NCBI RefSeq assembly: GCF_024436055.1
Contig: NZ_JANFNH010000001.1
Span: forward strand, 124,001-188,000
Length of the DNA stretch: 64,000 nucleotides
DNA from: Streptantibioticus rubrisoli
GTDB lineage: Bacteria; Actinomycetota; Actinomycetes; Streptomycetales; Streptomycetaceae
Direction: 5' to 3'
Within the stretch, counting starts at the first letter, position 1. Each line of letters opens with the position of its first letter. This document shows positions 9,216 through 54,388 of this stretch, piece by piece. The position numbers were made by a program, and so were the translations under genes. Under the pieces are notes generated by a model. It worked only from the letters and a program-made list of their open reading frames with translations, had not been told where the DNA came from and made no database searches.

Positions 9216-9307
9216 CGCTCCACCCCCTTTGCCTTCGTGGTTCCCACACTAGACCGGGGTACCGACAATCGGGCTGGGGGTGGATGGTGGGCCGGGAAAG
9301 CGGTGGA

Positions 9308-10153
9308 TCAGCGGCTGCCGTCCAGGATCACCCGGGCGACCAGCTGCGGGTCGTCGTTCATCGGCACATGGCCGCATCCCGGCAGCCGCACCAGCCGGGC
9401 GTGCGGAACCACCCGCTTGACCCGTGGGCCCTGGCGCCGCACCAGCACATGGTCGCGGGTGCCCCAGCCGATCGTCACCGGGATGTCCTCGGGGATCCCG
9501 CCCTCGAACAGCACGCCCTTGCGGCCCGCCGACAAGGTGGCCTCGAAACCGGGCGCCTCGCGCATGGCCCTGGTCTCCGCGACCACCGCCTCGGGTGACC
9601 GCCGTCCGGGGCGGTGGTAGATGCTGCCGGTCAGCGCCGCCCGTCCGGCGGCGCTGCGTGAGAGCAACTCGACCGTGGTGGGCGGCAGCAGGCGCGCGCC
9701 GCGCCGCATGGTGCTGAGCACCGTGAACGCGTAGAGGCGTTCGGGTTCGGTCCAGAACCCGGCGGGGGACAGCGCGGTCACGCTGCGCACCTGGCCGGCG
9801 CGTGCGAGGTGCAGGGCGATCAGGCCCCCCAGGGAGTTGCCGACGACATGCGGCCGGTCGACGCCCAGTTCGCTGAACATGGCGGCGAACACCTCGACCG
9901 CGCTCTCCAGCGAGTACGGGATGGACGGCGGCTGGGCGGGTGACTCGCCGAACCCGGGCAGGTCGACGGCGATGACCTCGCGATGGGCGGACAGCGCGTC
10001 GGCGACCGGGTCCCAGGCCTGGCGGTGGTGCCCGATGCCGTGCAGCAGGACGAGCGGTTCACCGGTGCCGTGCCGCTCGTACGCCGCTGTCACCGTCGGC
10101 CGCCCGGCCGGGGCGACATGGACGAAGGAGGTCGTAGCCGTGGTGATGGTCAT
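9308..10153 (-). CDS. Alpha/beta hydrolase
   Basis: 281 residues with a complete alpha/beta-hydrolase set: the oxyanion H-G-I-G-H-H loop, nucleophile elbow V-G-N-S-L-G-G (Ser), acid in G-T-R-D-H, and catalytic His in G-C-G-H-V-P. No signal peptide. The fold covers esterases, lactonases and C-C hydrolases, and the substrate cannot be told from sequence. ATG at 10153. About 340 bases upstream are non-coding. Confidence 0.88.
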   Translation of the reverse strand: MTITTATTSFVHVAPAGRPTVTAAYERHGTGEPLVLLHGIGHHRQAWDPVADALSAHREVIAVDLPGFGESPAQPPSIPYSLESAVEVFAAMFSELGVDRPHVVGNSLGGLIALHLARAGQVRSVTALSPAGFWTEPERLYAFTVLSTMRRGARLLPPTTVELLSRSAAGRAALTGSIYHRPGRRSPEAVVAETRAMREAPGFEATLSAGRKGVLFEGGIPEDIPVTIGWGTRDHVLVRRQGPRVKRVVPHARLVRLPGCGHVPMNDDPQLVARVILDGSR

Positions 10154-10495
10154 GCGTCGCTCCGGTCCCTACTCAGTGGTAACCCTTGGGTAACACTGTC
10201 CGGTCGACAGGTGGTCACGGCAAGAGTCTTGCCAGTCACAAAAGTGTTGAGGCCAACCAGTCCTCCACTCCCCGGCGTTGGGCCGCGCCCGGCTGCCGCC
10301 GCGATCCCGACCCCTCCAGCTCTCGTGGCGCGCGTGGAGTGCCGTGGTGGCGGCGGTGCGCAGGGTCATTGTGGGCCGCGTGCGGCGCTTCCGCGCGGAC
10401 GGCCGTGCCGAAGGGGGGAACGGCACGCGCTGTTCCACCGTCCGGAGCGGGCGGGGATCGTTCCGGAACGCCTTCGCCCGTTCGGGTTGCGGCGA
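10154..10495. other. Non-coding stretch between hydrolase and SDR genes
   Basis: About 340 bases without a gene-like frame. Just upstream of the hydrolase start lies a direct repeat GGTAAC-5-GGTAAC (10171-10195 region), a candidate regulator site for that leftward gene. The rest shows no clear structure. Confidence 0.35.
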
Positions 10496-11242
10496 TTACA
10501 GGCCGCCCGCCACGCGTAGGACGGCGCCGGTGGTGTACGAGGCGTCCGGTGAAAGCAGCCACTGGACGGCTGCCGCGATCTCGTCGGGCTCGCCGGGTCG
10601 GCCCATCGGCACCCGCTCCGGGTTGCGCCAGGGCCGGTCGGGGTCACCCATCGCCGCGTGGATGTCGGTCACCGTCATGCCGGGTTGCACGGAGTTGACC
10701 CGCACCCCGTCCAGGGCCAGTTCCTTGGCGAGGCCGATGGTGAGCGTGTCGACCGCCGCCTTGCTCGCCGCGTAGTGCACGTACTCACCCGGGCTGCCCA
10801 GCGTCGCGCCGCCGGAGGAGATGTTGACGATGGCTCCACCGCCCCCGCCGTGCCGGGTGGACATCTCCGCCGCGGCGCGCCGGGCGCATATCATCGCGCC
10901 CAGCACATTGACGTCCACCACCCGGCGCATCACCTCGACCGGGGTGTCGGTGAACCGGCCCAACGGGCCGGTGATACCAGCGTTGTTGACCAGTCCGGTG
11001 ATCGGCCCGAGGCGCTCCTTGACCGTGTCGAACAGCGCGTCCACCTGCTCCTCGACGCTGGTGTCGACCTGGACCACGACGCATTCGCCGCCGATGTCGC
11101 GAACGCGTTCGGCGACGTCCAGTGCGGCGTTGGCCGCGCGCTCGTATCCGATGCCGACATGGTGGCCCTGGCTGGCCAGACGCAGGACGACGGCCGCTCC
11201 GATCCCCCGGCTGCCGCCGGTGACCACCGTGACTGGACTCAT
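10496..11242 (-). CDS. SDR-family NAD(P)-dependent oxidoreductase
   Basis: 248 residues, a classical short-chain dehydrogenase: nucleotide motif T-G-G-S-R-G-I-G at the N-terminus, N-N-A-G-I after strand 4, catalytic Ser in N-I-S-S-G-G, and Y-A-A-S-K (Tyr-x-x-x-Lys). The end matches FabG-like 3-oxoacyl reductase/glucose dehydrogenase relatives. ATG 11242 follows GGGAGCG. It points away from the GntR gene. Specific substrate unknown. Confidence 0.9.
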   Translation of the reverse strand: MSPVTVVTGGSRGIGAAVVLRLASQGHHVGIGYERAANAALDVAERVRDIGGECVVVQVDTSVEEQVDALFDTVKERLGPITGLVNNAGITGPLGRFTDTPVEVMRRVVDVNVLGAMICARRAAAEMSTRHGGGGGAIVNISSGGATLGSPGEYVHYAASKAAVDTLTIGLAKELALDGVRVNSVQPGMTVTDIHAAMGDPDRPWRNPERVPMGRPGEPDEIAAAVQWLLSPDASYTTGAVLRVAGGL

Positions 11243-11434
11243 CGCTCCCGCTTCCTGTCGCGCCTTTGTGCGGCGAACGTGTCCGCCGTTGATCCAGAAC
11301 GCTAGCGCACCGGTGGATGGTAGTAATCCGCCCGAATTTTCCTGATAGGTGGGCGGGGATCGGGGTGTGCGAACTTGACGTGAACGCTGCGCGTAGTGCG
11401 ACGCGTACAGCGGGTAGGGAAGCGAGGATTGGTC

Positions 11435-46340: not shown

Positions 46341-47567
<1,227 letters not shown>

Positions 47568-47610
47568 CGGGAAACACCTGGAGGCCACGCGTAGATAGCC
47601 GCTGAAGAAA

Positions 47611-47639
47611 GGGCCCTCCCAGAGCATCTGGGAGGGCCC
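47611..47639 (+). terminator. Strong hairpin just inside the left end of the element
   Basis: Perfect 13-bp stem GGGCCCTCCCAGA / TCTGGGAGGGCCC with loop GCA. It ends acyl-CoA dehydrogenase transcription and insulates the element from it. Confidence 0.8.
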
Positions 47640-47731
47640 ACAGGTGTCGCAATGGGGTGATCAAACAGCCGCTGGGGCCGGTGGGAGGAGTGGATCTGCT
47701 GGGCCCGCAACGGAGACAAGTGGAGCGCCGA

Positions 47732-47872
47732 ATGACCACCGTCCTGCCCGCCGCGATGTGCGCATGCTGCGAGCGGCCGATACGCGCCCGCGTGGTGTGG
47801 TGCTCGCAGACGTGCCGCAACCTCGACGACCCCCACGACGACCAGGGCGAGCCCGAGCCTGGGGATGACTGA
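47732..47872 (+). CDS. Small zinc-ribbon protein
   Basis: 46 residues from ATG 47732, GGAG 6 bases upstream. C-A-C-C-E-R-P-I-R then V-W-C-S-Q-T-C-R: two Cys pairs as in DUF2116-like zinc ribbons; the tail is acidic. Similar tiny proteins occur in actinobacterial mobile elements. Function unknown. Confidence 0.55.
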   Translation: MTTVLPAAMCACCERPIRARVVWCSQTCRNLDDPHDDQGEPEPGDD

Positions 47873-48061
47873 GGAGGGAACGCCTGGTCGTGTGATCACC
47901 CGTTTGGCGGCGTAGATTCTAAAAAACAAGACCTTCAGGTGTGTGCGGCAGAAGGCCCGCCACTGTTGCGGTCTTTGTCGCCCCGGCATTTTGCCCTCTC
48001 CGGTCAGCCACGCGGCCGAGTACGTGTCCGGCCGATCTCTCAGGCCTGTCAGGAGGGTTCC

Positions 48062-48405
48062 ATGCGCAGACGACTGATACCGGCGGCTCCATTTTGCGCT
48101 GTAACGTCGTCCCCCTTTCCTATGTGTCGTGTGGCTCTGTCGACGTTGGCCCCGGGGAAACCCTTTCTGTGCGGGTCACGAGCGACGCGACGGCACAGAC
48201 CGGGACGGTACAGGCCGCTGATTTCCAGGCATTCCTCAATGGCGCGAAGATCAAGGATGTCGGGCCAGTCATTAGTTCTGATCAAAAACCCCAAGTCATC
48301 TTGAAGAATCTTACGACCTCTACCGTGACGGTAACGATGCAAGCCAGTGCCGGCGGGTTGGATTTTGGGTTTCTGACAGGTGGCTACATCGTCACCGGTC
48401 CCTGA
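48062..48405 (+). pseudogene. Probable secreted protein gene with a frameshift
   Basis: AGGAGG and ATG 48062 open a basic, signal-like start (M-R-R-R-L-I-P-A-A), but that frame soon loses protein character. From about 48140 a different frame is convincing up to TGA 48405: V-G-P-G-E-T-L-S-V-R-V-T-S-D, ending G-F-L-T-G-G-Y-I-V-T-G-P, a beta-rich extracellular look. Joining the two needs one frameshift near 48135-48145. Alternatively a TTG at 48094 starts the second frame. Third-position G/C is low, marking it as foreign. No family recognised. Confidence 0.45.
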
Positions 48406-48460
48406 GCCTCCAGCGGCTCCATCGCGGACCTAGCCCGACGAGCTGCTCAGCTAGTCCCCC

Positions 48461-48504
48461 GACGCTGCGCCCCGGCCTCGATGACGAGGCCGGGGCGCAG
48501 CGTC
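48461..48504. terminator. Perfect 20-bp bidirectional terminator hairpin
   Basis: Arms GACGCTGCGCCCCGGCCTCG (48461-48480) and its exact complement (48485-48504), loop ATGA. Lies between a rightward and a leftward gene. Confidence 0.85.
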
Positions 48505-48554
48505 GTGTCAGCGTGCTCCTCCGAAGATCTCGTGGGTGCAGCTGACCGCTGCTC

Positions 48555-49133
48555 TCAGCTGTGTTTCATTGCCAGACAGCGGATGCCGAATACGTCGCCG
48601 TAGCGGTTGAAGTAGGAGACCAGGCTGTATCCCTGGGCGACGAGCGTCGGGTTGAGCCAGCGGCAGGCGGCGTGCAAGTCGATGGCGTAGTGGACACCGT
48701 TGTATCCGACGCATCGCCATCCCGCGACATTGTGTACGTCGAGAGCCGGGGTGTTGTACCCGAGGGCCTTACAGTAGCCGCCCAGCGGCATGTCGCTGGG
48801 GGATGAATAGTCGATCGCGTTGATCGCCCAGCAGCGTCCGCCCACGAACCGGACGTTGAAGCCGGCTCGCACCAGATCGCTGAACTGCCAGTCGCAGGCG
48901 GCGAACAGGTTCAGCGGCGTCCAGTACGCGCCGTTGTTGTAGTAACAGACCCAGGGGTTGGAATTGCCATTGTCGATCTTCTCGGCGCCCTGGTAGTGCA
49001 TCGCCTGGCAGTACTCATTGAGCTCCATGCCACCGAGGTCTCCCGTGGTGGCACTGGCCATGGGGGCCGCGACAAACAGGCACAGAACAGCACCAAGAAG
49101 GGTAGTGAATAATCGAGTACGAGTGCGAGACAT
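48555..49133 (-). CDS. Secreted protein with duplicated four-cysteine module
   Basis: 192 residues from ATG 49133. Signal peptide with R-T-R-T-R start, hydrophobic L-L-G-A-V-L-C-L-F-V-A-A and A-S-A cleavage near residue 28. The mature part is two copies of one module: L-x3-Y-C-x-A (Cys42 / Cys121), W-x-C-x-Y-N-G-like (Cys63 / Cys141), L-x-A-A-C-x-W (Cys80 / Cys157), R-C-x-A (Cys101 / Cys186). The eight cysteines probably form disulfides outside the cell. I recall similar single modules in other actinobacterial secreted proteins, but no function. Confidence 0.8.
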   Translation of the reverse strand: MSRTRTRLFTTLLGAVLCLFVAAPMASATTGDLGGMELNEYCQAMHYQGAEKIDNGNSNPWVCYYNNGAYWTPLNLFAACDWQFSDLVRAGFNVRFVGGRCWAINAIDYSSPSDMPLGGYCKALGYNTPALDVHNVAGWRCVGYNGVHYAIDLHAACRWLNPTLVAQGYSLVSYFNRYGDVFGIRCLAMKHS

Positions 49134-49361
49134 GTGTCCCCCTGTTGAGGTCGGGGCGGCTACTCGGGAAGAAAGCATGGGCACTCAGGCATCCAATAGG
49201 CTCCCGTCCCATATGCCAGCTGTCAAGGCCATGCCATATTGATCAGAAACTCAAAGTTTCTATTCGGCCTTCATCGTGCCGGGCTGGCCGCAGTGAGTCT
49301 CAGCGCTACGTTGTGCGGCCCCGAGTACGCGCGGCGTCTCGATCACCCGCCGTCCGTCCAG

Positions 49362-49673
49362 TTGCACGTGGCCGAGGGCATCCTCCGCGAATGGGGCTGG
49401 CAGCAGCAGCCTCACCACCTCCGAAACCGGCGCGGCGCCCGCTGCGTATGCGGGGCGATCTGCGCCGCCGTGGCGCTCGGCGTCGGCTCCGAGCACGCCG
49501 CACACCGGGCCGCAGGGCACGTCCTCCACGTCCTGCGTGACCGCGGCTGGCCACACCTGATCGGCGACTGGAACCAGCAGCCCGGGCGCACCCCCCAGCA
49601 GGCATATGGGAAGCCGAGCAAGCCCGAATCGAGGAGACCCGCTCCCGGGAGATCGCCAACTACCACGTCATGA
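49362..49673 (+). CDS. DUF6197-like protein, 3' end fused to foreign sequence
   Basis: The start is uncertain (TTG 49362 or GTG 49368; the frame is open from 49239). V-A-E-G-I-L-R-E-W-G-W-Q-Q, then C-V-C-G-A-I-C-A-A-V-A-L-G, then G-D-W-N-Q-Q-P-G-R-T follow the DUF6197 pattern found in Streptomyces and their phages. After R-T-P-Q-Q the family-like sequence stops. From ~49604 another frame encodes the linker of an Mrr-type nuclease, so a deletion seems to have joined two genes here. Confidence 0.5.
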   Translation: MHVAEGILREWGWQQQPHHLRNRRGARCVCGAICAAVALGVGSEHAAHRAAGHVLHVLRDRGWPHLIGDWNQQPGRTPQQAYGKPSKPESRRPAPGRSPTTTS

Positions 49674-50035
49674 GTCCGCGGCAGTTCGAAGAGGGCATCG
49701 CCTACCTATGCCAGCGAGACGGCTGCACGGACGTGCAAGTCGTTGGTGGCCGCGGGGACCTCGGAGCCGACGTGAAAGCCATAGCCCCCGACGGGCGCCG
49801 CATCGTCATCCAGTGCAAGCGCTACGGGCCGAGCAACAAGGTCGGCTCCGGGGACATGCAAAAGTTCGGCGGCACCTGCTACGCCTGGCACCGAGCCGAT
49901 ATCGCCGCGCTCGTGACGACCTCGACGTTCACCAAGGACGCCGCAAACTACGGGAGGAGTATGCGCATCGGCCTCTATGACGTCGACGCCCTCGCCGGGT
50001 GGGCCTCCCGAACCGGTCCGGCGCCCTGGCAGTAA
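49670..50035 (+). CDS. Mrr-type restriction endonuclease domain, N-terminally truncated
   Basis: 121 residues from ATG 49670. PD-(D/E)xK core: G-D-L-G-A-D-V (Asp34) and I-V-I-Q-C-K-R-Y (Gln48, Lys50), the Mrr/DUF2034 pattern. Full-length Streptomyces relatives carry N-terminal membrane helices and a coiled linker. Here the linker (A-E-Q-A-R-I-E-E-T-R-S-R-E-I) is readable upstream in frame to ~49604 but has no start codon. The catalytic domain is intact, but expression is doubtful. Confidence 0.7.
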   Translation: MSPRQFEEGIAYLCQRDGCTDVQVVGGRGDLGADVKAIAPDGRRIVIQCKRYGPSNKVGSGDMQKFGGTCYAWHRADIAALVTTSTFTKDAANYGRSMRIGLYDVDALAGWASRTGPAPWQ

Positions 50036-50061
50036 CCCGGCCGACTGTTGAGCCCATGCGC

Positions 50062-50078
50062 GGGGCTTTCGCATGCCC
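50062..50078 (+). repeat. Dispersed terminator-tail repeat, copy 1
   Basis: GGGGCTTTCGCATGCCC after the Mrr-like gene; one of four copies of GGGGCTTTCGCATGC in the element. Confidence 0.7.
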
Positions 50079-50130
50079 GAACCGACGCCCGTGACCTGCT
50101 GTTCGCCGGTATGCAGATCCAGGGGGCACG

Positions 50131-50265
50131 ATGGGGAAGCGTCGGCAGGTGCGGATCGCGTTAGTCGCCGTGAGCGTGCTGGTGATCGGAAGCCTGGCGA
50201 TACTGCGCTACGTGGCCACCCCGCTCATCGACTGGATCTGCCGCGACTTCACCCTCTACTGGTGA
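50131..50265 (+). CDS. Tiny membrane protein with a TTA codon
   Basis: 44 residues from ATG 50131 (AGGGGG upstream). Basic start M-G-K-R-R-Q-V-R, one hydrophobic helix (A-L-V-A-V-S-V-L-V-I-G-S-L-A-I-L), then W-I-C-R-D-F-T-L-Y-W. Codon 11 is TTA, rare in Streptomyces and dependent on bldA tRNA, so translation may be limited to late growth. Function unknown. Confidence 0.55.
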   Translation: MGKRRQVRIALVAVSVLVIGSLAILRYVATPLIDWICRDFTLYW

Positions 50266-50298
50266 GACCGCCTACCGCCGCCCCGCGCACCGTCGCGC

Positions 50299-50315
50299 GG
50301 GGCTTTCGCATGCCC
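50299..50315 (+). repeat. Dispersed terminator-tail repeat, copy 2
   Basis: GGGGCTTTCGCATGCCC preceded by CCCCGCGC, so it forms a CCCCGCGC/GCGCGGGG hairpin followed by CTTTCG: a working terminator for the tiny membrane gene. Confidence 0.75.
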
Positions 50316-50370
50316 GGGCATGGTCGCGGGCCGGGCGCATACTGGCCGTGAGAGCGCCGGGAGGCGGGCG

Positions 50371-50790
50371 ATGACTGATCCACTGGAGTTCCTGGTAGCG
50401 GCCCACGGACGGGCCGAGGAGATCGCACGGGCCCTACGCGATGACCTGTGGTGGCCGCCCGAAGCCGAACGTATCGAGGTCTACACAGACAGCAACATCC
50501 TGATCGCCGGAGCTGACGACACCATCCGGTGCCTGACCGCGGCCGCCGACCCGGCCGCAGTGCTACGCCGGATCGCCGCCGAACGCGAACTCCTCGCCCT
50601 GCACCAGCCGGAACGCGAGGCGTACATCTACCCGGACGTGGATGGGCCCGAGCCCGGTGTGCTCACAGTCGCCTGCAAGACCTGCGCCCAAGGTCAGCAC
50701 TACGACCTCCGACCCGAAGTGTTCCCGTGCCCCACGGTCCGGCTGCTCGCCGAAGCCTGGGGCTGGACGGAACAGGAGGAGCAGCGGTGA
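50371..50790 (+). CDS. DUF6221-like protein
   Basis: 139 residues from ATG 50371, GGGAGG 7 bases upstream. L-E-F-L-V-A-A-H-G-R-A-E-E-I-A-R-A-L at the start, D-P-A-A-V-L-R-R-I-A-A-E-R-E-L-L-A-L in the middle and C-P-T-V-R-L-L-A-E-A-W at the end fit the DUF6221 plan, common on Streptomyces plasmids and phages. A C-K-T-C pair is visible. Function unknown. Confidence 0.65.
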   Translation: MTDPLEFLVAAHGRAEEIARALRDDLWWPPEAERIEVYTDSNILIAGADDTIRCLTAAADPAAVLRRIAAERELLALHQPEREAYIYPDVDGPEPGVLTVACKTCAQGQHYDLRPEVFPCPTVRLLAEAWGWTEQEEQR

Positions 50791-50793
50791 CGC

Positions 50794-50808
50794 GGAGCTT
50801 TCGCATGC
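50794..50808 (+). repeat. Dispersed terminator-tail repeat, copy 3
   Basis: GGAGCTTTCGCATGC, one change from the others, directly after the DUF6221-like stop. Confidence 0.6.
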
Positions 50809-50859
50809 GAGCCGAGTAGTGAGACCCTAGGCCACAGGTTCGCAGCACCGGGGGACACT

Positions 50860-51030
50860 ATGACGAACCCATTCAAAGGCCGCCGCCGACCGATCCGCCG
50901 AATCCTCTACATACTGCTGGCCATCGGCCTGATCTGGCTCGCCTGGCACCCACACCACTGGCACACGGGCGGCGACCCCTGTAACCCCGTCGGTAGCTAC
51001 TACTGCGGATCGTCCAACTGGCAGTGGTAG
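50860..51030 (+). CDS. Tiny membrane protein with Trp/Cys-rich tail
   Basis: 56 residues from ATG 50860 (GGGGG upstream). Basic start with R-R-R, one hydrophobic helix (I-L-Y-I-L-L-A-I-G-L-I-W-L-A-W), then H-P-H-H-W-H and two Cys in G-D-P-C-N-P-V-G-S-Y-Y-C-G. Likely exposed outside the membrane with a disulfide or metal site. No family recognised. Confidence 0.55.
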   Translation: MTNPFKGRRRPIRRILYILLAIGLIWLAWHPHHWHTGGDPCNPVGSYYCGSSNWQW

Positions 51031-51302
51031 CAGCCTGTCGACCGCGGCATCATCGCCCGGGCGATCCATCGGCGGTCGAGCGACATGCGAACCGGTTTCA
51101 TCGTCGGCACCGCACCCAGCTGGGAACAGAGTTCGTCGAGGGCGGCGGCGCACTCCTCCCGCGTATCCGCGTGCCTCACCGCCATAACAGCAAGTGGACC
51201 ATGAAACCCGCCTGAGTGGGCCAATTGGTCACATCCGGGCGTTGTCGCGCACCAGGAGCACAATGGGCGCGGCACCCTCACGCAACCCGGGAGGCCCCGC
51301 GC

Positions 51303-51998
51303 GTGTCGACCCCGAGACCCTGCCCTGGCCTGTGCAACAACCCATGGCGCCGCGCAGAAACCGAACGCCACCCACGGCACCACCCACGACCTCCAGCCCA
51401 CCTGGGGCGACCCCGTCCACTGCGCACGCTGCACCCACCGCGCCCACACCGAACTCCTCACCGCCATAGGCTGGAGGCCGTCCACGGCACACGCGGCATG
51501 CCCACCGGCACCATCGGACGCCACCCCACCCACCCCGCATGGCCCGGACAAGCATCCCGACTCCTCACCGACCACATCCTCGGCGCCCTAGTCGAGTTGG
51601 AGGAGGGCATCCGCCAACTCCGCAGCCTCATCCGGAGGTCAGCCCGCGGACGGGAAGGCGCCACCGCGAACGCCGCGATGACGTTCCTCGCCGCACACCT
51701 GGATTGGGCACTGGCCCACCACCCGCTCGCCGTCGAGGTCCACGACCGGCTGTCCGGGAACCCGGCCGCGCAGATCCACGGCTGGCACCGCACAGCCCTA
51801 CGGTTCACCGCCCGGGACACAAGGCTGGAGCACCACCGTGTGCCGTGCCCCCGCTGCGAGTTGCTGGCCCTGTTCCGTGCGGACGGTGACGACTACATCG
51901 AGTGCCGGAACTCCAACTGCGGCCTGCTGTTGACCCCGGCGGAGCTGTTCGCGCACACCAAGGCCGTGGCCGTCGAGTACGCGCAAGCCGCCGCTTAG
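51303..51998 (+). CDS. Zinc-ribbon mobile-element protein with compensated frameshift
   Basis: 231 residues from GTG 51303, GGGAGG 6-7 bases upstream. Start S-T-P-R-P-C-P-G-L-C-N and end P-C-P-R-C-E-L-L-A-L... D-Y-I-E-C-R-N-S-N-C-G-L-L-L-T match a zinc-finger protein family of Streptomyces plasmids and phages. Between about 51366 and 51470 the family-like residues (P-T-W-G-D-P-V-H-C-A-R-C-T) are in another frame, so one inserted and one lost base seem to bracket this part. The frame stays open but the first zinc site is destroyed. Confidence 0.6.
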   Translation: MSTPRPCPGLCNNPWRRAETERHPRHHPRPPAHLGRPRPLRTLHPPRPHRTPHRHRLEAVHGTRGMPTGTIGRHPTHPAWPGQASRLLTDHILGALVELEEGIRQLRSLIRRSARGREGATANAAMTFLAAHLDWALAHHPLAVEVHDRLSGNPAAQIHGWHRTALRFTARDTRLEHHRVPCPRCELLALFRADGDDYIECRNSNCGLLLTPAELFAHTKAVAVEYAQAAA

Positions 51999-52084
51999 TT
52001 GACGAATGAACAGTGTTACGCGTAACTTCATCGGCAGGTACAGGTGTGCCCACCGATCCACAAGCCCCGAAGCCCCTCGGCTCT

Positions 52085-52100
52085 GGGGCTTTCGCATGCC
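52085..52100 (+). repeat. Dispersed terminator-tail repeat, copy 4
   Basis: GGGGCTTTCGCATGCC preceded by GAAGCCCC, giving a 7-bp hairpin with the repeat as its 3' arm; follows the zinc-ribbon gene. Confidence 0.7.
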
Positions 52101-52111
52101 AGGAGAGACCC

Positions 52112-52341
52112 GTGATCAGCATTGACGGAGACCTCGACCAACAACACACCCTCTCGACCACCGCCGAGGGGCCGGGGCAGCGGGCGTCGAGTCTGGTGTC
52201 ATCCGGATCTGGGCGCACCGCGGGCACCTCAAGCGCGCCACCTGCGAGAAGTGCCGCATCCCGAAGTACCGGGCCATCGACGTGGTGAAGGCCGAGAAGG
52301 CCACCCGGGAGCGCGCCCGCCGCACCTACAACGCCGCCTAG
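52112..52341 (+). pseudogene. Frameshifted small Cys/Lys-rich protein gene
   Basis: AGGAGA and GTG 52112 start I-S-I-D-G-D-L-D-Q-Q-H-T-L. From ~52197 another frame carries a convincing end: W-A-H-R-G-H-L-K-R-A-T-C-E-K-C-R-I-P-K-Y-R-A (one C-x-x-C pair) with stop TAG 52341. Each half alone ends abruptly, so a single frameshift near 52185-52200 has probably broken the gene. It resembles small zinc-binding proteins of Streptomyces phages. Confidence 0.5.
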
Positions 52342-52385
52342 ACAGCCGCGCTTTCGCCCTGGATCACCTGATGGGAGGTGACCCG

Positions 52386-53180
52386 GTGCGTCGTCGCCTC
52401 GCCGCCGTTGGTCTGATGGTCGCCGCACTCCTCGGACTCAACGCCGCCCCTGCTCCAGCCGCTCAACACGGCTTCCGCCTGATCTTCGCCGACGGGTTCA
52501 ACCAGCGCACACCGCTCGGGAGCTTCTCCGGCTGCGACCACAACGACGACACCCCGCAGGTGTACCGCTCTGGCCTGACCGGCAGCATGCGCGCGAACTG
52601 GTGGGCCTACCCCGCGGGTTGGCCGGACACCGCGACCCAGCGCGGCTACCCGGTCGGCGGCTACTACGACCCCGTCACCACCCTGTGGGTCGTACCCTCG
52701 CCGTGGGGCGACGGGCAGTCGCACATCCGCATGTGGCGCGGCTCGTCCGGCCCGGTCCACTCCGCGACCGTCGTACCCAAGGCCGCCATGGGTCTCAAGT
52801 ACGGGGCCTACCAGGAACGGTGGCGCGTCTCCCACGTCGCCAAGGGTTACAAGAGCGCCCACCTGCTGTGGCCCGTGTCGAACTCGGACCAGTGCTCGGA
52901 GAACGACTTCCCGGAGTCGGAGGGGGACACGCAGGTCGCCGGGTTCATGCACCCCTCCAACTACGGCGAACAAGTAGCCGTCGACACCGGCCAATCATGG
53001 GGACGCTGGCACTTCCTGCTGCGGTTCACCGAGGGCAACGTTCCCGACCTGAGTGATGCCCTTGACACTGGAAGAGGTCGATGGGAGCCCGCAGCTGAAC
53101 AGCCGGACCTGCGGAACCGTGCACGCCGCGGGTGGGTGGCGGTCGCCGTAAATCGAAACTTCGTTCACCCTGTTGGGTGA
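52386..53180 (+). CDS. Secreted GH16-like protein, C-terminally altered
   Basis: 264 residues from GTG 52386 (GGGAGG upstream). Signal peptide R-R-R-L-A-A-V-G-L-M-V-A-A-L-L with A-P-A-A-Q cleavage. The concanavalin-like body holds E172-N-D-F-P-E177, the E-x-D-x-x-E catalytic pattern of GH16 glycosidases. After W-G-R-W-H-F-L-L-R-F-T-E-G-N-V-P the sequence becomes Arg-rich and unlike the family, so the 3' part was probably replaced by a deletion near the right end of the element. Activity uncertain. Confidence 0.65.
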   Translation: MRRRLAAVGLMVAALLGLNAAPAPAAQHGFRLIFADGFNQRTPLGSFSGCDHNDDTPQVYRSGLTGSMRANWWAYPAGWPDTATQRGYPVGGYYDPVTTLWVVPSPWGDGQSHIRMWRGSSGPVHSATVVPKAAMGLKYGAYQERWRVSHVAKGYKSAHLLWPVSNSDQCSENDFPESEGDTQVAGFMHPSNYGEQVAVDTGQSWGRWHFLLRFTEGNVPDLSDALDTGRGRWEPAAEQPDLRNRARRGWVAVAVNRNFVHPVG

Positions 53181-53290
53181 CTGACGCGATGCTCTGCGCG
53201 CTGTTGACTATTGCAGAGTGAGCAACACCCTCAGGCGTGTCGGGATCTCCCGCAGTGGATGGTCCCCCTCGGTAGGTCCCGGCACTGAGC

Positions 53291-53320
53291 GAGCCCCTTC
53301 CCGGACGCGGGAGGGGGCTC
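53291..53320. terminator. Hairpin near the right end of the element
   Basis: GAGCCCCTTCCCG / CGGGAGGGGGCTC, 12 of 13 pairs, 3-4-base loop. The surrounding ~280 bases before the right repeat contain no recognisable gene; three phased GGA-R-Y-AAC motifs lie at 53368, 53389 and 53400. Confidence 0.6.
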
Positions 53321-53460
53321 ATGCCGTTTCGGGGGAGAAATGGGAGACGATCTTGCCCGCGCAACCCGGAACAACACCGATCCAGCGCGGAGCAACCCCG
53401 GAGTAACGCAGCGCTGACCAGCAGCGGAACTGAGTTGGCGCAGGGCCAGCCCAGCCGACA

Positions 53461-53546
<86 letters not shown>

Positions 53547-53566: not shown

Positions 53567-54388
53567 CTACTGCTGGGTGATCGGTTCCTGCAGTTCGGTG
53601 ACCATGCCGTCGAGGTCTTCGGGGCAGGCCAGGGTCACTTCGCGGTTCGGCCCGGCGGTGCGGTAGCCCGCATCCTCGATCCAGCGGGCCAGCGCCTGGT
53701 AGGTGGGCAGGCAGTCGTCCATCGAGCCGCGATGGACGATCGTGGCCGCCTGCTCCACCTCCGGAAGGTCGACCACCGCGAAGTCGAAGGCATCATCGGG
53801 CTCGACGTTCACCGGAAGACCGGCGTGGACGATGACGCTTTCCCCGTCCCCAGCGTCCTCGTAGTAGGCGGTCGCCGGACCGACCGGAGTGACCCCCGCC
53901 CGGTCCAGGGCCGAGCACAGTTCGGCGTACAGTTCGCGAACGACCGGGCCGATCGACAACGGCTCCAGGGTCTTCGCGGTACCGGTCATCTCCGCGACCC
54001 GCACGGCGGGAATGCGCTTGATCGTCACTTCTTCGCTGGGCATGGTCCCCTCGCTCTCAATCATCCGGAGCCGCGCCTGGACGTGCGCCAGTCGAGCCGT
54101 GTCCGTCGCGATCTGGGTCTGGAGCTCAGCCTGCCGCAGCGTGAGCATTCCGCGCAGTTCCCCAGCGGTGACGTGATCGTCGAGGATCTGCTGGACCTGC
54201 TGCAGGGTGAATCCCAACTCCTTCAACGCGACGACGCGGTTGAGCCTGGACAACTGGCCCGCCTCGTAGGAGCGGTAGCCGGTCGCGGGGTCGACGTGCG
54301 CGGGCCGGAGCAGTCCGATCGCGTCGTAGTGACGCAGCATGCGGACCGACACCCGACCGTGCCTGGCGAAGTCTCCGATACTGAACAT
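53567..54388 (-). CDS. MerR-family regulator with GyrI-like effector domain
   Basis: 273 residues. MerR HTH at the N-terminus (F-S-I-G-D-F-A-R-H-G-R-V-S-V-R-M-L-R-H-Y-D), a dimerisation helix (L-T-L-R-Q-A-E-L-Q), then a GyrI/BmrR-type ligand domain from about residue 118. Such proteins sense hydrophobic cations or drugs and remodel an overlong promoter. Exactly such a promoter precedes the gene, so it probably activates itself on ligand binding. Confidence 0.9.
   Translation of the reverse strand: MFSIGDFARHGRVSVRMLRHYDAIGLLRPAHVDPATGYRSYEAGQLSRLNRVVALKELGFTLQQVQQILDDHVTAGELRGMLTLRQAELQTQIATDTARLAHVQARLRMIESEGTMPSEEVTIKRIPAVRVAEMTGTAKTLEPLSIGPVVRELYAELCSALDRAGVTPVGPATAYYEDAGDGESVIVHAGLPVNVEPDDAFDFAVVDLPEVEQAATIVHRGSMDDCLPTYQALARWIEDAGYRTAGPNREVTLACPEDLDGMVTELQEPITQQ

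Follow-up and report, generated by a model that had tools for sequence, protein, structure and literature searches.

The window, which is the whole stretch of 64,000 nucleotides analysed here, contains an integrated element of about 6 kb (47477-53546) in contig NZ_JANFNH010000001.1 of Streptantibioticus rubrisoli. The element is flanked by a 91-bp direct repeat. The left copy (47477-47567, plus strand) is the 3' end of an acyl-CoA dehydrogenase gene (46341-47567), and the right copy (53456-53546, plus strand) matches it at 99%. The 3' end of the dehydrogenase gene is restored upon insertion by a copy of this repeat. Neither of the two congeners, G001 and G002, has a match at this locus for the sequence between the repeat copies. 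In G001, the sequence from about 33 bp past the dehydrogenase end is 75% like the window from 54541 onward, while in G002 the dehydrogenase end is first followed by about 1.3 kb of other sequence. The flanking repeat and the absence of the interior from the locus in both congeners show that the element, of which the first-pass annotation had already spoken, is real. Pfam searches of seven frames revealed no integrase in it. A MerR/GyrI-like regulator gene (53567-54388) lies just outside the right repeat. It also has no match at the locus in either congener, so the variable region reaches beyond the right repeat.

The gene for a putatively exported protein of 192 aa, here called P0001, is located at 48555-49133 on the minus strand of the element. 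Based on Pfam, other element genes belong to the DUF6197 family (49293-49673), encode an Mrr-type restriction endonuclease domain (49670-50035), and belong to the DUF6221 family (50320-50790), all on the plus strand. The P0001 gene was initially described as reading opposite to the rest of the element. This is right for the accepted element genes, but the crude gene caller also lists one low-GC3 minus-strand frame at 47489-47989, which overlaps the dehydrogenase end. Its rating as the element's best-preserved gene, for P0001, is plausible. The "perfect terminator" of the same description is an inverted repeat whose 21-bp arms match perfectly around a 4-nt loop (48460-48505, no strand assigned). 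It forms a strong hairpin (z = -7.4) and is possibly a bidirectional terminator, but it is not followed by a T-run, and the block shared with a congener does not include it.

This shared block (48519-49266, minus strand) is 748 bp long with 92% DNA identity, and comprises the P0001 gene and about 130 bp upstream. In G002, it is found at another locus, outside the element, where the orthologue is 95% identical to P0001. The G002 gene sits between GNAT-like and APH-like genes, as judged from their reading frames. Its locus corresponds to about 20.4-20.5 kb of the window, where the window contains no such gene. The P0001 gene has a synonymous divergence of 0.117 and a GC content of 0.61; for five genes surrounding the G002 locus, the values are 0.175-0.354 and 0.72-0.76, respectively. 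The low synonymous divergence and the low GC content fit a separate acquisition or relocation of the P0001 gene. Three methods gave dN/dS values of 0.15-0.23, indicating purifying selection on the gene.

The first-pass annotation offered a superinfection factor as one possible role. If P0001 served the mobile element in superinfection control or defence, it would keep company with the Mrr-type endonuclease domain carried by the same element. The orthologue at another locus in a congener makes element-bound roles such as superinfection control unlikely. Besides, P0001 has no PADLOC model match at E<=0.01, and its relatives are absent from the phage and viral-contig collections searched. Such a role can be considered very improbable. 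The mobile element may carry the P0001 gene only as cargo.

Two four-cysteine modules in P0001

The N-terminus of P0001 consists of R-T-R-T-R, a hydrophobic core, and A-S-A before Thr29, and the 19-residue Kyte-Doolittle mean of this segment is 2.17. Residues 1-28 (49050-49133, minus strand) thus read as an export signal, a prediction drawn from sequence reading and hydropathy rather than from a dedicated signal or topology program. It supports the secretion proposed earlier. Cysteines are found at positions 18, 42, 63, 80, 101, 121, 141, 157, and 186. Cys18 is inside the predicted signal peptide, and the remaining eight belong to the modules.

Module 1 (residues 33-103; 48825-49037, minus strand) contains Cys42, 63, 80, and 101 and is supported by profile match. 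Module 2 (residues 113-188; 48570-48797, minus strand) contains Cys121, 141, 157, and 186 and is supported by profile match and a structure model. Both modules have Trp two residues before their second cysteine. The paired contexts are NEYC/GGYC, WVC/WRC, AACDW/AACRW, and GRC/IRC, and all eight cysteines with their contexts had been correctly listed in the first-pass annotation. The local alignment of the two halves has a score of 82, which is reached by none of 2000 shuffles (mean 26.2, sd 4.9, maximum 51). Masking the cysteines lowers the score to 52, which again none of 2000 shuffles reaches (maximum 49). The halves are true internal repeats, beyond chance. P0001 is a free protein, unattached to any Ser/Thr kinase. 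In its own genome, where all 103 first-look candidates were scored, the two modules of P0001 are the only ones at E<=0.1.

The module and its relatives in Actinomycetota

An independent profile was built from eight modules of four relatives, with P0001 left out. It scores P0001 at 56.0 bits (21.5 bits for module 1 and 35.1 bits for module 2), while the best of 2000 cysteine-fixed shuffles reaches 13.0 bits. Profile-profile comparison for P0001 gives a probability of 95.1 and an E-value of 3.1e-8. Iteration of the profile led to an aligned set of 51 modules from 29 actinobacterial proteins, in which three second matches from the search of the G932 family have no separate rows and to which a relative in G001, found later, does not belong. 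The iterated profile scores module 1 at 47.6 bits and module 2 at 62.7 bits. Identity between P0001 and the eight relatives compared does not exceed 32%. In the module tree, the P0001 modules stand on their own long inner branches and are joined to each other by long branches, so the tree was not used for dating the duplication in P0001. With this divergence, the function of P0001 may have drifted. The module is real and well conserved, and P0001 is a divergent free twin of it that resides here on a mobile element.

The module is about 75 residues long and has the signature Y-C ... W-x-C ... A-C ... C. The median spacers between successive cysteines are 19, 15, and 23 residues. The Trp of W-x-C is seen in 50 of the 51 modules, and the Tyr of Y-C in 44. 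Arg is present between the third and fourth cysteines in 44 of 51. Four cysteines are present in all 51, although the modules were picked by a profile, which biases toward conserved cysteines, and these counts describe the collected set. This conservation, together with the presence of the module on kinases, might suggest an extracellular redox sensor, in which the paired cysteines work as a reversible switch instead of structural bonds. Structural disulfides give equal conservation, however, and the motif CxxC is seen in none of the 51 modules. A redox sensor is improbable.

A hydrophobic segment precedes the module in all 29 proteins, with 19-residue means of 1.38-2.76 (only L044 is below 1.7). 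Free and membrane-anchored forms were assigned by hydropathy and the distance between the segment and the module. On this basis, 18 proteins are free secreted twins, two are free singles, and nine carry the module behind a membrane segment; one of the nine (L013 10285-11325) has its segment close to the N-terminus, and this segment may instead be a signal peptide. Three of the 29 are fused to a kinase or a helix-turn-helix (HTH) domain. The G034 protein contains HTH_31 (E 4.2e-6), a Ser/Thr kinase (E 6.1e-40), a transmembrane segment, and then the twin. The G029 protein contains HTH_31 (E 4.3e-8, above cut-off), a transmembrane segment, and the twin, and its HTH is 51% identical to that of G034. 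The G786 protein, from another family, contains a kinase (E 4.2e-50), a transmembrane segment, and a single outer module. At the G029 locus L013, two twin-module genes adjoin on the minus strand (9224-10309 and 10285-11325), one of which places its modules behind HTH_31 and a membrane segment.

Free forms are also seen outside the genus of P0001. G164 encodes a free secreted twin, and so does G932, in whose family 20 of 170 genomes have matches. The module is present in all 20 loci of the G932 family: 15 encode free twins, two encode free singles, and three encode the module behind a membrane segment. The free twins in loci L031-L043 and L045 consist of an export signal and two four-cysteine modules, and nothing else. 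G423, from another class, has a single module after a membrane segment. The plasmid NZ_CP054927 (NZ_CP054927.1) of Streptomyces microflavus encodes a membrane-anchored twin (L050 5791-6429), and this is the only record with a relative among the plasmid, phage, and viral-contig collections.

Because two kinases and an HTH protein carry the module on their outer side, extracellular binding or sensing is a likelier role than that of an effector or an adhesin, the two other roles named in the first pass. An adhesin or structural protein, not involved in sensing, would stick to the wall, spores, or hyphae of its own producer, or to other surfaces. This idea fits an exported, cysteine-rich protein with no enzyme match, and the long Pro/Ser/Thr-rich linkers in several membrane-anchored relatives would project the module outward. 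But two kinds of cytoplasmic signalling protein bear the module as their outer part, and neither a wall anchor nor a sorting motif was seen by eye in the translated sequence of P0001. A surface or matrix protein is unlikely, though the best placed of the other explanations.

The gene neighbourhoods bear on a secreted effector or inhibitor against competitors, such as an inhibitor of proteases or a small protein with antibacterial activity. P0001 is small, secreted by prediction, cysteine-rich, sporadic in distribution, and located on mobile DNA, as such a protein could be. Among 21 loci of another family, in 19 of which the module gene itself was called, no neighbour gene is common to more than four, so that a conserved partner such as an immunity gene was not found. 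The neighbour groups common to four loci sit almost wholly in one genus. An apparent subtilisin-like secreted protease gene adjoins the module gene in two of the 21 loci (L028 10162-11868 and L077 4667-5866). This adjacency could suit a protease inhibitor, but it is rare, and a toxin would not be expected to serve as the outer domain of kinases. An effector is quite unlikely, slightly more so than a surface protein.

The genome totals of the searches overlap. P0001 itself is uncommon in closely related genomes and is present in two of three genomes of its genus, its own and G002. G001, which lacks P0001, encodes an apparent free secreted single-module protein (E 0.00145). G001 and G002 each also contain one weak match with a stop codon. 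The family search at E<=0.01 gave matches in six of 394 genomes: the genus pair, G164, G034, G323, and G196. G323 and G196 were rejected as relatives, as their matches are without the module. The search with the G034 pair at E<=0.001 gave four of 297 genomes and added G029; the match in G137 is a chance match without the module. The phylum search gave two of 396 genomes (its own and G423) and the class search two of 296 (G932 and G786), numbers that are possibly too low because these alignment searches scored 13-14 first-look candidates per genome. When the G423 module served as a single-protein query, G423 itself was the only match (one of 198 genomes), and within the respective genera of G029 and G164 no genome other than these two matched (one of three and one of 70, respectively).

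Family and fold searches and the proposed function

Pfam lists only sub-threshold matches for P0001: MlaE (E 0.025), mostly at the signal peptide, and the CIDRalpha1 domain (E 0.74). NCBIfam and PHROGs gave no match, and neither Pfam nor NCBIfam assigned P0001 to an enzyme family. Among the relatives, DUF6164 stays below the cut-off (E 0.077, and E 0.013 for one of 12 modules), and DnaB_2 (E 0.019) and other Pfam families are matched weakly. One plasmid relative weakly matches a sialic-acid-binding adhesive repeat (E 0.011, below the Pfam cut-off). NCBIfam on nine members gave SslE in one (E 0.00015), which we take to be a match to a low-complexity linker, and three weaker matches in one member each. 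Neither P0001 nor another twin matches any PDB sequence, and the best match of the module profile (E 0.23) is not beyond chance. The G034 module pair is matched to Fc receptor-like protein 5 at E 0.0033, with no single stretch passing alone. No Pfam, NCBIfam, PHROGs, or PDB-sequence match is taken as real.

The model of module 2 has a pLDDT of 80.6, though the five models disagree (80.6, 72.5, 45.7, 41.3, and 41.1), and the model of the twin, with a pLDDT of 45.7, is too poor to use. Foldseek with the module model retrieved nothing at E<=0.001 from PDB (best 0.66) or BFVD (best 0.37), and the best VIA Z was 3.6 in a fold comparison with this moderate-confidence model. The absence of a confident fold match to such a predicted structure does not amount to a new fold. 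Literature searches on such a module and on the strain gave no description of it among the entries listed. Within the scope of the searches (Pfam, NCBIfam, PHROGs, PADLOC, PDB sequences, and literature), the module is undescribed. A homologue with a described fold and function had been named as evidence against the original reading; homologues exist, but none with a described function was found.

The reading we prefer, with a probability of about one half, is that P0001 is exported to act as a binding protein without enzymatic activity, and that it represents, in soluble form, an extracellular module of actinobacteria so far undescribed. The rarity of kinase or HTH fusions (three of 29 proteins), the unshared gene neighbourhoods, the disagreement among the structure models, and the divergence of P0001 count against this reading. 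From the placement and the conservation of the module, we infer that its four cysteines pair into two disulfides once the protein is exported, and that the module recognises an extracellular ligand, which may be a small molecule, a wall fragment, a glycan, or another protein. In the kinases and HTH proteins, ligand binding would be relayed through the membrane. The free twin would act outside the cell and might sequester, present, or neutralise the same class of ligand. A decoy for a receptor of the same cell is unlikely, because its own genome has no second, anchored copy. A broader and clearly more tentative idea is that this is a new extracellular recognition module of Actinomycetota, swapped among kinases, tethered HTH regulators, and free twins. 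In communication between cells, the free forms could then serve as diffusible signals, as scavengers, or as antagonists, and one such form spreads on mobile DNA.

To our knowledge, actinobacteria have numerous receptor kinases, most of them with no known ligand. As described in PMC3601408, the ectodomain of PknH of Mycobacterium tuberculosis (PDB 4ESQ) serves as the sensor of this kinase; it contains two intramolecular disulfides and a cleft presumed to bind a small molecule, and its ligand is unknown. The same review gives the ligands of both PknD and PknH as unknown, describes repeated small extracellular modules in the PASTA-domain kinases of the PknB/PrkC type, and reports that muropeptides bind PASTA3 of PrkC (PMC3601408). 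PknH resembles the relatives in G034 and G786 in having an extracellular domain on an actinobacterial Ser/Thr kinase, whereas P0001 is free. The module here differs from it as a four-cysteine unit that usually comes in pairs and, in most cases, is free and not part of a kinase. Pfam holds a PknH-type profile. This family is not listed for P0001 (E<=10) or for 12 modules (E<=1), in searches where HMMER filters drop most weak matches. The PASTA kinases are similar in bearing repeated small extracellular modules on bacterial kinases, but PASTA is not listed for P0001 or the scanned relatives, and as far as we know it needs no cysteines. P0001 might at most work like PknH or PASTA, and its sequence matches neither. 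The free twins of L031-L043 and L045 share the architecture of P0001, although the P0001 modules form their own branches.

A small separable module, found both free and on kinases, is a defined unit that can be purified and screened for its ligand. The definition of the module also lets unnamed or misleadingly named proteins be annotated. The relative on the S. microflavus plasmid is annotated as "phage holin family protein", a label that probably derives from its membrane segments alone.
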